This document shows positions 3,685-7,701 of a stretch of 64,000 nucleotides of DNA, piece after piece. This DNA is from Lota lota. Its lineage: Eukaryota; Chordata; Actinopteri; Gadiformes; Lotidae. Under the pieces are notes generated by a model. It was not told the origin of the DNA and did not search any database. It saw only the letters and a program-made list of their open reading frames with translations. Numbering within the stretch: the first letter of the stretch is position 1; every line of letters begins with the position of its first letter. The stretch spans positions 353,501 to 417,500 of the forward strand of contig JACYXH010000028.1 of assembly GCA_026745465.1 (NCBI GenBank). Direction: 5' to 3'. The translations under genes were made by a program, and so were the position numbers.

Positions 3685-6600
3685 GTGAGGCAGGAGGTGG
3701 CTGTTTGAGGAGGACAAATTGAAGCAGTATCTGACTTGGGGCAATGAGTTGAACTCAGTGTATTGATTGATTAATCTTCTTGATCATTGTCACTTATCAA
3801 GTAAAAACACAGGTACAGGTGATTTAATTGATGTTGATCATCGTTGATTTAGTAAGTTGAATCTAGTTTAACTTTATTTTTTTTAATCAGAGTGTGGTCC
3901 TTTCTCATGTCTCCTCTCCTCTCCTCTCCTCTCCTCTCCCCTTCCTCTCCTCTCCTCTCCTCCCTCTCAGCCTCCCCTCCCCCAGAGTGTCCCATGCACC
4001 AAAGCCTGAACACTGCTGGTAAGTAGGAGGAGAACCAGCTCGCTTATCAAAATCCCATCCCGTTGGCAACATGGATGTTAAACTGAGCTGTGGTGCATCA
4101 ATAGGCCCACATAAGACTCTAGCCTACGAGGCCCTTATGAGAAGGGATGCTAGGGGCATCTCCATCAAAGTTATGAACCCTGACCACACATCAGGCTGAA
4201 AATACCTTTAAAGAGACTGTTACCTGAACAGAATCCTGTCTGTCCTCCTTACAACGTGATGCGACCGGTATCGCTCCCATCATTTGGTCTGCAACAGCCA
4301 ATCAACAAGCTCCTCTGAACTGCTTCTCCCCCCGAGCATCCTGTGTGGGCGTGGCATGTCAGCCAGAGATGGGCGTGGCATGTCAGCCAGAGATGGGCGT
4401 GGCATGTCAGCCAGAGATGGTTCCATCAGCACCACAACAAATAATACAGAGACGGGATATATAATTATATATATATATATCCATAATATAAGGAAAGACC
4501 AGTGTTAGCAGAACTTCTGACAAGTTGAACTATTATCCCCCTGCAATCGTTTCTCAAACATAGGCTGTAAACTACTAAAGCAGAACCGAAACGTGTTCAT
4601 TCGAAGAGATGATGGTCATAATACAGCAGTAAATGAGTACAAGGTAAAAGGCCCACCTGTAGGATACTTCACCCAGGATAAAGGTCTCCAGTATGATGTA
4701 ATAAGCCTGGATCTGAAGTGCATGCTGGGAAGCTCCCTGGCCTGCTGGTGGAGGACAGATGGGGTTCCCTGTTTAAAATAGCCTGGACTAGGCCTTCTTA
4801 AAAACGTGCCGCGGTCAGGACAGTTCAAGGGTGTCCTAGAAACGTGTGTTGCTCATGATGATGCTGAGCGCTCATGTTCTATCTCCACCAACCTCCAGGG
4901 GGGGCCATGCCGCCGGCCCCTGCAGGGCCAGCGGGCCCAGCCCACCAGGACCGCGCCTATGACTTTGTGGAGTGCCCCATGAAGGCTGCAGCATCTGGCG
5001 GACAGAACGACATCGACCCCACAAATATGGTACTGGTCCTGAGATGTGGGATGGCAATGTTCCCCTCAGGATGGATAAAGGACTTAATGTTTCTAGCTCT
5101 ACTAGTGGGAAGGGACTAGCAGTCCCTTCCCACTAAGAGGCCTATGATGCACCAGTTGGGATCCTGTGGAAATTCCACAGGAGATGCTGCTGAAGGGTTG
5201 TGATCGCTCTGGTTCTCTCTAGGCAACCACTCAGCATACCTGTTGCATCCTGTGTTCCTTTTAACAATGTTATCTGTGTTATTCTGAGAAAACAATCATT
5301 TCTCATGCAGCCTTGGCTAACCCTGTAGTCTGAAGGATGAGGTCTTTGTGGGAACAGTGAACTGCAGCTACAGCATCATGTGGGTCACGTGTGAGAGAAT
5401 CCTCTTGTTTCAGATGCCTCCTCCCAACCAGAGCCCCGCCCCCGACCAGCCCTTCCCCCTGCCGCTCAGCAGGAGGGAGTCCAACATTCCCAGACACGGC
5501 AGCGACAAGAAATGGGTCTATCCCTCAGAGCAGATGTTCTGGAATGCCATGCTGCGCAAAGGGTTAGAAAGACCTCCTGGCCATGTCTGTTTCCTGTTTC
5601 ATCAACATTATCCTGAGTTGTTCCTTACCAGGAACTAAGAACATGAACACTAGACTAATGGATCACCTATCAATGTAGAGGGCTACATTCCTAAGATTAA
5701 AGCGCTTAGCTGAAAAGTAAATCCTTCTATTAATAAATAATATCATCCTTTGTTTTCTTGTATTCACTCTTTGAACTGTTCCATCTCCTTTTCCCCTGGG
5801 ACGCCCTCCCATGCTGCAGGTGGCGCTGGCGCGAAGAGTCTCTGGATCCTCAGGATATGAGCAACATTATTAAGATCCACAATGAGAACAACGAGCAGGC
5901 CTGGCAGGAGATCCTCAAGTGGGAGGCGCTGCACGCACAGTGAGTCCGTGGCTTCACGTTGGCTCCTCCCCTCACAACGGTGACCATGCTGATGTCATCT
6001 TTCCTCTTCCAGAGAATGCCCATGTGGCCCCTCCCTCAAACGATTTGGAGGGAAAGCCAAAGAATATTCTCCAAGGGCCCGGATTCGCTCCTGGATGGGG
6101 TCAGTATTTCATTATTCACTGGTAACATGTCTCCACCCAGTAGGTGACTGGTAACATGTCTCCACCCAGTAGGTGACTGGTAACATGTCTCCACCCAGTA
6201 GGTGACTGGTAACATGTCTCCACCCAGTAGGTGACTGGTAACATGTCTCCACCCAGTAGGTGACTGGTAACATGTCTCCACCCAGTAGGTGACTGGTAAC
6301 ATGTCTCCACCCAGTAGGTGACTGGTAACATGTCTCCACCCAGTAGGTGACTGGTAACATGTCTCCACCCAGTAGGTGACTGGTAACATGTCTCCACCCA
6401 GTAGGTGACTGGTAACATGTCTCCACCCAGTAGGTGACTGGTAACATGTCTCCACCCAGTAGGTGACTGGTAACATGTCTCCACCCAGTAGGTGACTGGT
6501 AACATGTCTCCACCCAGTAGGTGACTGGTAACATGTCTCCACCCAGTAGGTGACTGGTAACATGTCTCCACCCAGTAGGTGACTGGTAACATGTCTCCAC

Positions 6601-7701
6601 CCAGTAGGTGACTGGTAACATGTCTCCACCCAGTAGGTGACTGGTAACATGTCTCCACCCAGTAGGTGACTGGTAACATGTCTCCACCCAGTAGGTGACT
6701 GGTAACATGTCTCCACCCAGTAGGTGACTGGTAACATGTCTCCACCCAGTAGGTGACTGGTAACATGTCTCCACCCAGTAGGTGACTGGTAACATGTCTC
6801 CACCCAGTAGGTGACGGGTAACATGTCTCCACCCAGTAGGTGACTGGTAACATGTCTCCACCCAGTAGGTGACGGGTAACATGTCTCCACCCAGTAGGTG
6901 ACTGGTAACATGTCTCCACCCAGTAGGTGACTGGTAACATGTCTCCACCCAGTAGGTGACTGGTAACATGTCTCCACCCAGTAGGTGACTGGTAACATGT
7001 CTCCACCCAGTAGGTGACTGGTAACATGTCTCCACCCAGTAGGTGACTGGTAACATGTCTCCACCCAGTAGGTGACTGGTAACATGTCTCCACCCAGTAG
7101 GTGACTGGTAACATGTCTCCACCCAGTAGGTGACTGGTAACATGTCTCCACCCAGTAGGTGACTGGTAACATGTCTCCACCCAGTAGGTGACTGGTAACA
7201 TGTCTCCACCCAGTAGGTGACTGGTAACATGTCTCCACCCAGTAGGTGACTGGTAACATGTCTCCACCCAGTAGGTGACTGGTAACATGTCTCCACCCAG
7301 TAGGTGACTGGTAACATGTCTCCACCCAGTAGGTGACTGGTAACATGTCTCCACCCAGTAGGTGACTGGTAACATGTCTCCACCCAGTAGGTGACTGGTA
7401 ACATGTCTCCACCCAGTAGGTGACTGGTAACATGTCTCCACCCAGTAGGTGACTGGTAACATGTCTCCACCCAGTAGGTGACTGGTAACATGTCTCCACC
7501 AGGTACGAGCTCCCATTCGACCGCCATGACTGGATCGTGGACCGCTGTGGCCGAGAGGTGCGCTACGTCATCGACTACTACGACGGGGAGATCAACAAGG
7601 ACACCTACCAGTTCTCCATCCTGGACGTGCGCCCCGCCATAGACTCGCTGGACGCCGTCTGGGACCGTGTGAAGGTGGCATGGTGGCGCTGGACCTCCTA
7701 G
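3585..7701 (+). CDS. hccs: Holocytochrome c-type synthase (cytochrome c heme lyase), 7 coding exons
   Basis: The enzyme acts at the inner mitochondrial membrane, facing the intermembrane space, and attaches heme to the CXXCH cysteines of apocytochromes c and c1. Coding exons are 3585-3684, 3971-4018, 4899-5029, 5414-5562, 5820-5939, 6013-6099 and 7503-7701. All introns are GT-AG with phases 1, 1, 0, 2, 2, 2. The exons sum to 834 nt (277 residues plus TAG), against 268 residues in human. Recognised blocks in order are two CPMH heme-regulatory-type motifs, [63 protein letters not shown] (His163, matching the essential heme-ligand His154 of human), [20 protein letters not shown], and [10 protein letters not shown] to the C-terminal WWRWTS. 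No frameshift or internal stop was seen, so the gene appears intact. The odd features are intron 6 and the tandem acceptors of exon 2. Identity is certain; exact use of the start and of exon 2 is inferred. Confidence 0.97.
3908..3970 (+). repeat. (CTCCT)n polypyrimidine microsatellite at hccs exon 2 acceptor
   Basis: A TCTCC/CTCCT run forms the polypyrimidine tract of the exon 2 acceptor. It is both a microsatellite and a splice signal, so its length could vary without loss of function. Confidence 0.8.
3971..4018 (+). CDS. hccs: hccs coding exon 2 (second CPMH motif; alternative acceptors)
   Basis: Two AGs can serve as acceptor: 3969-3970 (exon from 3971) and 3984-3985 (exon from 3986). They are 15 nt apart and both keep the frame. 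The longer form adds five residues (ASPPP in place of none) before [12 protein letters not shown]. The exon carries a second CPMH motif. The donor G|GTAAGT after 4018 is strong, phase 1. I chose the first AG after the pyrimidine tract, as scanning would favour. Confidence 0.75.
4346..4421. repeat. 24-bp tandem repeat, 3 copies, hccs intron 2
   Basis: Three near-identical units contain GGCATGTCAGCCAGAGAT and GGGCGT. An (AT)n tract follows at about 4462-4482. The rest of intron 2 (4019-4898) is unique and nothing else was recognised. Confidence 0.9.
4899..5029 (+). CDS. hccs: hccs coding exon 3 ([13 protein letters not shown] block)
   Basis: The acceptor is ACCTCCAG at 4897-4898. A Gly/Ala/Pro-rich linker ([14 protein letters not shown]) precedes the conserved [15 protein letters not shown]. 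The exon ends DIDPTNM, matching human NLDPSNL. The donor ATG|GTACTG is weak, phase 0. Confidence 0.95.
5103..5135. repeat. Perfect 15-bp hairpin in hccs intron 3
   Basis: TAGTGGGAAGGGACT (5103-5117) and AGTCCCTTCCCACTA (5121-5135) are exact reverse complements around the loop AGC. It lies 74 nt after the weak exon 3 donor. There is no downstream T run. The remainder of intron 3 is unremarkable. Confidence 0.85.
5414..5562 (+). CDS. hccs: hccs coding exon 4 (MPPPNQ to WNAMLRKG)
   Basis: The acceptor CTCTTGTTTCAG ends at 5413. The translation [16 protein letters not shown], then [20 protein letters not shown] and WNAMLRKG, is one of the most conserved parts of the family. The donor GG|GTTAGA after 5562 is non-consensus at +3 and +4. 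It is required because the phase-2 join restores GWRW with exon 5. Confidence 0.95.
5820..5939 (+). CDS. hccs: hccs coding exon 5 (heme-ligand histidine)
   Basis: The exon encodes (G)[18 protein letters not shown], then [21 protein letters not shown]. The histidine of IHNENNEQ (residue 163 in the 277-residue model) aligns with human His154, the axial ligand to heme during transfer. The acceptor is ATGCTGCAG at 5819. The donor CA|GTGAGT after 5939 is strong, phase 2. The following intron is only 73 nt. Confidence 0.96.
6013..6099 (+). CDS. hccs: hccs coding exon 6 ([20 protein letters not shown])
   Basis: The acceptor CCTCTTCCAG ends at 6012. Only the phase-2 frame gives the conserved [16 protein letters not shown] and [12 protein letters not shown]; the other two frames are meaningless. 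The donor ATGGG|GTCAGT after 6099 opens the repeat-filled intron 6 after just 19 nt of unique sequence. Confidence 0.95.
6119..7502 (+). repeat. 29-bp minisatellite filling hccs intron 6; each unit is a 3' splice-site module
   Basis: There are forty-seven full 29-bp units followed by a 21-nt partial unit. The register is exact (47 x 29 = 1363 nt from 6119 to 7481), so there is no indel. I see two point differences, both the same T-to-G change (GTGACGGG, around 6813-6872). Each unit reads CTGGTAACATG, TCTCCACCCAG, TAGGTGA. The last partial unit ends TCTCCACCAG and is the true acceptor of exon 7. The array is 1384 of the 1403 intron bases. Because 29 is not a multiple of 3 and the unit lacks minus-strand stops, all three minus frames are open for hundreds of codons; these are not genes. 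Confidence 0.97.
7503..7701 (+). CDS. hccs: hccs coding exon 7 (C-terminus and stop)
   Basis: The acceptor AG at 7501-7502 is the end of the minisatellite. The exon gives (G)[16 protein letters not shown], then [38 protein letters not shown] and WWRWTS, closing with TAG at 7699-7701. The C-terminus matches vertebrate HCCS to the last residue. The acid-rich DYYDG turn and the tryptophan-rich tail are complete. Confidence 0.97.

Follow-up and report, generated by a model that had tools for sequence, protein, structure and literature searches.

A 29-bp tandem array ending in the native acceptor region makes up most of intron 6 of hccs in Lota lota

The 64,000-nucleotide (nt) stretch of the Lota lota genome considered here (contig JACYXH010000028.1, positions 353,501 to 417,500; hereafter the window, with positions counted from its first letter) carries on its forward strand hccs, the gene for holocytochrome c synthase, whose intron 6 consists largely of a tandem array of 29-bp units running into the acceptor of exon 7. 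When joined, the seven exons of this essential heme-attachment gene (3543-3684, 3986 (or 3971)-4018, 4899-5029, 5414-5562, 5820-5939, 6013-6099 and 7503-7701) give an open frame of 286 amino acids (aa), and the encoded protein matches the Pfam family Cyto_heme_lyase (PF01265, cytochrome c/c1 heme lyase) with an E-value of 1e-62. Coding exons 1 to 6 accordingly occupy 3543..6099, as defined by the joined open frame and the PF01265 match, and the terminal coding exon 7, for which sequence, frame and PF01265 agree, extends through the stop codon at 7503..7701. The six introns measure 301, 880, 384, 257, 73 and 1403 nt, respectively. On sequence grounds the last of them, at 6100-7502, reads as an intron with GT...AG ends, and its boundaries are well supported by the coding frame because the joined exons encode the 286-aa PF01265 protein. 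The end of intron 1 (3961-3985) offers a choice between in-frame acceptors, one closing at 3970 and the other 15 nt on at 3985, by which five residues (ASPPP) would be added or dropped.

Intron 6 is composed of 18 unique nt, 47 copies of the 29-bp unit and a 22-nt partial copy. Tandem Repeats Finder (TRF) reports the array at 6118-7500 with a period of 29, 47.7 copies, 99% matches, 0% indels and a score of 2752, and together with a copy-by-copy comparison this bears out the first-pass annotation, which had described the intron as mostly a 29-bp unit repeated 47 times with a final partial unit serving as the exon 7 acceptor. The sole part outside the array, at 6100..6117, comprises the native donor GGG/GTCAGT (slashes mark splice junctions) and 12 further nt; this donor scores 5.18, whereby all splice-site scores given here were calculated from vertebrate position matrices and not by a splice predictor. 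The full copies at 6118..7480 each contain branch-like TGAC and TAAC motifs and the sequence CTCCACCCAG/TAG/GTGACT, and 45 of the 47 are identical, in keeping with the high homogeneity noted earlier for the array. Its earlier description as free of indels with two substitutions needs to be amended, however: the two deviating copies, 25 (6814..6842) and, two units on, 27 (6872..6900), do carry one substitution each, a common T-to-G change at unit position 3 (T3G), but the last copy is one C short. The common variant suggests that a two-unit block was copied after the mutation, or that conversion took place.

The last partial copy, at 7481..7502, is the native acceptor region of exon 7 (CTCCACCAG/G), and it is in CTCCACCAG that the one C is missing when compared to CTCCACCCAG of the unit. 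Over 20 contiguous nt (7481-7500) it is identical to the unit, the identity ending 2 nt short of exon 7. Branch-like adenines in a TnAy context lie at -22 (TGAC) and -15 (TAAC) in this copy, both of which recur 29 nt further up, and near the acceptor there is neither a unique branch point nor a unique tract outside the repeat. Since the 18 non-array nt all reside at the donor end, where vertebrate splicing rules leave no practical place for a branch point, the branch point, pyrimidine tract and AG of intron 6 are in practice all located within repeat units.

As each unit holds CAGTAG (47 occurrences in the array), it contributes not one but two AGs, so that the number of decoy acceptors, previously put at about 47, rises to 94 (47 CAG and 47 TAG). 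The predicted coding consequences hold for all of them: a CAG decoy, as had been proposed, reads GG+T AGG TGA and stops at once, giving a protein of 222 aa (of 286) that ends in ...SWMGR, and a TAG decoy reads GGG TGA and gives 221 aa (of 286) ending in ...SWMG. With full retention of intron 6 the stop follows after 238 aa, and insertion of TAG alone stays in frame, adding one Arg without an early stop. The donor-like TAG/GTGACT that had been pointed out in the unit is likewise present 47 times (TAGGTGA x47). The real acceptor scores 5.04, compared to 2.46 for the CAG decoy and 3.54 for the TAG decoy, the advantage over the former being mostly due to the G at +1. The donor scores are 5.18 for the native site, 6.82 for TAG/GTGACT and 5.04 for a second donor-like site in the unit, CTG/GTAACA. 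The real acceptor is therefore modestly better than its decoys, and the decoy donors are about equal to the real donor or better.

The array lies in surroundings that are rich in tandem repeats. TRF arrays cover 25,770 of the 64,000 bases of the window (40%, against 12.6% in 42 kinase loci of the same genome, see below), and 29 of the 73 merged arrays are at least 300 bp long; high densities of repeats of 1-10 bp have been described for haddock and cod (PMC5894186). The hccs array is one of 31 minisatellite arrays of at least five copies in the window. Because the consensus of 16 of the other 30 has, on at least one strand, an acceptor score above the 3.5 of the hccs unit, acceptor-like repeats as such are ordinary here, and what is unusual in the hccs array is its intronic position and its ending in the native acceptor. 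Even this position, taken by itself, is not especially improbable with so many repeats in the window: when the 62 edges of the 31 arrays are placed at random, about 8% of trials have an edge no more than 3 nt away from any of the 12 splice sites of hccs. As a repeat, the hccs array is not due to chance.

With respect to the source of the unit, a DNA search of the 575-Mb assembly with the 29-bp sequence gave 15 matches, all of them inside the hccs array, and a dispersed origin was therefore set aside, with the proviso that the search skips very common words and copies elsewhere are possible. An Rfam scan of 3000-9000 gave nothing at gathering thresholds; Pfam searches with 10 of the 164 open reading frames of the window gave nothing above the cut-off, and the longest of these 10 was without a match in the PDB. 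Imperfect repeats, both inverted and direct, can be made out by eye at 7790-8080, soon after the hccs stop (CATCTCATGTGGGTTTTGTTGTG and its complement); they perhaps represent a small mobile element.

The first-pass annotation had further held that the native 3' splice site itself appeared to have been amplified. That the acceptor region is a repeat unit is evident from the 20 identical nt, but that the acceptor was the founder is not established by the sequence, because an array born inside the intron which then reached the acceptor would leave an identical picture. A paralog of hccs on contig C308 was considered as an outgroup. Its intron at the corresponding position is 374 nt long and has the unrelated acceptor CTGTCCCCCAG/CTACGAG, and TRF finds no array in that intron, the one row for this stretch (L011) lying outside it at 141-386. 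The duplication is probably too ancient for the paralog to reveal the founder.

To see how unusual it is in this genome for an array to contain a splice site, a sample of a single gene class was taken, the exon matches to the tyrosine-kinase domain (PF07714). Of 156 matches found, 98 (74 and a further 24) were examined with their flanks, 8 of 30 search loci having been dropped before the count as duplicates of stretches already taken; the ends of the hidden Markov model (HMM) matches only approximate the exon edges, and the donors and acceptors of the kinase loci are accordingly inferred ones. Among the first 74 matches, TRF arrays with a period of at least 6 overlap the HMM edge or come within 5 nt of it on the acceptor side in three cases and on the donor side in four; none of these seven belongs to the 15 search loci, out of 22, that match on the minus strand. 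A further test of all matches flagged eight of the 98 (L020, L030, L051, L052, L053, L057, L060 and L062), and in two of these, L051 and L052, the exon end is repeated together with the inferred donor. In L051 (C92, minus strand, 896-1603), the last 45 coding nt of the exon, the inferred donor GTCAGT and the start of the intron make up an 89-bp unit that is present 8 times (the eighth ending at 85), with one substitution overall; the first of the 8 is the actual end of the exon. In the paralogous gene L052 (C359, minus strand, 2952-3329), the homologous exon end and its inferred donor are present in 5 copies spaced 73-89 bp, and since the intron part is a different, GT-rich one, this array probably arose in an independent event.

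In L062 (C555, 2048-2150) a sequence of about 41 nt is directly repeated at a distance of 62 nt, with 39 of 41 positions identical, and the second copy extends as far as the inferred acceptor of a related kinase exon; to call it a 62-bp tandem unit proved too strong, and it is possibly an early stage of an acceptor array. In L057 a 39-bp array stops a few nt short of the inferred acceptor, whose AG is complete 10 nt past the array, and in L058, which the test did not flag, TRF places the start of a 23-bp array about at the donor. L051, L052, L057 and L062 we take to be Eph-like receptor kinases. Tandem copies of splice sites thus recur in this genome, as observed in a small sample of one gene class, and the exon ends with inferred donors in the arrays of L051 and L052 weaken the uniqueness of the hccs case.

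Taken together, intron 6 of hccs is probably best explained as a young, passive minisatellite that has taken in the native acceptor as its last copy and is mostly spliced from 6099 to 7503 owing to the context of exon 7. The array would have arisen, and would remain uniform, through the very turnover that has made this genome so rich in tandem repeats; having taken in the 3' end of the intron, it would have left the native acceptor region as its last, exon-proximal copy. The pre-mRNA would then mostly join 6099 to 7503, the last copy presumably being chosen as the only one directly followed by exon 7, with a G at +1 and the context of a terminal exon, and the internal AGs would define no exon, as a donor-like site comes 0-3 nt after each of them, with more intron behind it. 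A rule by which the copy nearest the exon is the real site also fits the inferred donor arrays of L051 and L052, going by where the real site should lie in them, and intron 18 of human ABCA7, where a variable number tandem repeat (VNTR) of 25 bp has as its first two bases the GT of the real exon 18 donor (PMC5954066). The hccs array hence seems to be a by-product of a genome that is rich in repeats and nonetheless has to be spliced correctly.

Several observations weigh against so quiet a picture. The margin of the real acceptor over its decoys is small, and it is the second weakest among the six hccs acceptors. The decoy donor TAG/GTGACT outscores the native donor (6.82 versus 5.18), which makes mis-splicing plausible, and hccs may be able to use its decoys. 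The further 24 kinase exon matches have no array within 60 nt, and the two donor arrays, being paralogs at one exon, are not two independent draws. Moreover, transcripts of ABCA7 retain one VNTR unit and the length of the VNTR, which is polymorphic with about 12-427 copies, is linked to skipping of exon 19 (PMC5954066), so that such arrays are not always silent.

It is in this light that an effect of array length on hccs output has to be weighed, by which decoy acceptors and donors would take a share of splicing that rises with copy number, yielding the protein of 221-222 aa and lowering the output of functional product. All 94 decoys do lead to one of two short proteins, and as intron 6 is the last coding intron, an early stop would have no junction downstream of it unless the 3' untranslated region contains an intron. 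Yet, hccs being essential, selection would probably have acted against an array of 47 copies if its effect were strong. ABCA7 can be invoked on both sides, since the length of its VNTR alters exon 19 skipping but retention of one unit does not change with VNTR size (PMC5954066), and comparable repeats in amphioxus, according to PMC3087553, do not disturb regular splicing. We regard such tuning as unlikely. Still less probable is that decoy use corrects itself in a ratchet-like fashion, in that splicing to a TAG leaves exon 6 with a new donor behind it, from which further rounds proceed until they end at the last copy, which has no such donor. In the 47 TAGGTGA motifs an acceptor is indeed joined to a donor, the regenerated GGG/GTGACT scores 4.97 compared to 5.18 for the native donor, and use of a CAG followed by use of the TAG/GT donor would add only the in-frame Arg codon mentioned above. 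Recursive splice sites have an AG directly followed by a GT donor after a pyrimidine tract, and TAG/GTGACT is at best a candidate for one: the TAG acceptor is weak (3.54) and shadowed by the CAG 3 nt upstream. Introns of 29 nt are far below usable length, so that the steps would have to be long jumps.

Two further possibilities concern the RNA and the assembly. RNA structure could hide the decoys if pairing with the following unit covered every internal AG and left just the last one free, and CCAGT and ACTGG of adjoining units are in fact complementary. When 5990-7720 was folded with four base-pair spans, the A of the real AG came out somewhat more open than the decoy A (0.53-0.95 versus means of 0.44-0.59), but its G was predicted to be paired (unpaired 0.005-0.036) while the G of the decoy CAGs was open (0.64-0.69), and the energy per nt was ordinary, 40% of 500 shuffled units being as stable or more so. 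Occlusion by RNA structure is therefore not supported and seems very improbable indeed. That a short array was inflated or collapsed during assembly, leaving a wrong copy number, is also quite improbable: near-identical 29-mers are hard to assemble, but an interior variant is common to two units, the flanks are unique, the gene is intact and the window contains 31 minisatellite arrays, and the array itself would stand even with a wrong count. A bolder extension of the passive-minisatellite explanation, which we hold to be a rather improbable speculation, would have splice-site-bearing minisatellites common at exon edges of both sides throughout this genome, with splicing buffered against them; hccs would be the extreme case, where AG/GT units let decoy use be undone in a second round of splicing, so that copy number is nearly neutral and freely variable.

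It is difficult to test in ordinary genes how the spliceosome chooses among many near-identical 3' splice sites. In hccs, 47 matched natural decoy modules are available, from which the real site is set apart mainly by where it lies, by the lack of one C and by the exon behind it. As donor-side arrays, too, seem to be present in the genome, exon-proximal choice could be tested there with a natural library. Such arrays could in addition allow the shift of splice sites and the gain of introns by tandem duplication to be watched.

Tandem repeats over splice boundaries are as such already known, as the amphioxus 'mirages', ABCA7 intron 18 and human segmental duplications illustrate; hccs differs in that the acceptor side is concerned, in the copy number together with the purity of the array, and in that all signals of the intron except the donor exist only as repeat. 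A minisatellite with multiple splice donor sites was reportedly found by Turri et al. in 1995 in the human interferon-induced gene G1P3/IFI6; if so, repeated splice sites are supplied by a minisatellite there as in hccs, albeit donor sites. In human segmental duplications, internal tandem repeats of about 30 bp can change splicing at exon-intron boundaries, but these average 4 copies and form novel introns or longer exons, whereas the hccs array ends in a native acceptor (PMC2812944). A vertebrate case on the acceptor side of the kind seen in hccs was not found in the open-licence PMC literature as judged by titles and the beginnings of abstracts. The mirages of amphioxus (Adh3, the globins BflGb6 and BflGb9, TnC and PGBD5) are tandem, minisatellite-like repeats at a splice boundary with AG/GT in many units (PMC3087553, PMC3902484), and those in the globin and Adh3 genes are the ones reported to leave regular splicing undisturbed. 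As in the mirages, the hccs repeat lies at an exon-intron boundary, the authentic site is one of the copies (the repeat being exact to 2 nt before exon 7), and AG/GT signals are found in the units (47 CAGTAG, 47 TAGGTGA). However, the units of mirages span the boundary, as do those of the kinase arrays L051 and L052, which include exon sequence, whereas the hccs unit reads TAGGTGACTGG after CAG where exon 7 reads GTACGAGCTCC; being without recognisable exon sequence it fails the strict definition and is therefore not called a mirage. Also, hccs has 47 near-identical 29-bp copies, whereas the two BflGb6 haplotypes have 3 and 6 units, respectively, of 150-160 bp each, and the units of Adh3 measure 10-72 bp. 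Like the ABCA7 VNTR, finally, the hccs array is an intronic minisatellite of similar unit length which contains a native splice site and whose further units may be decoys, with the difference that in ABCA7 it is the donor, and in hccs the acceptor, that has become part of the repeat.

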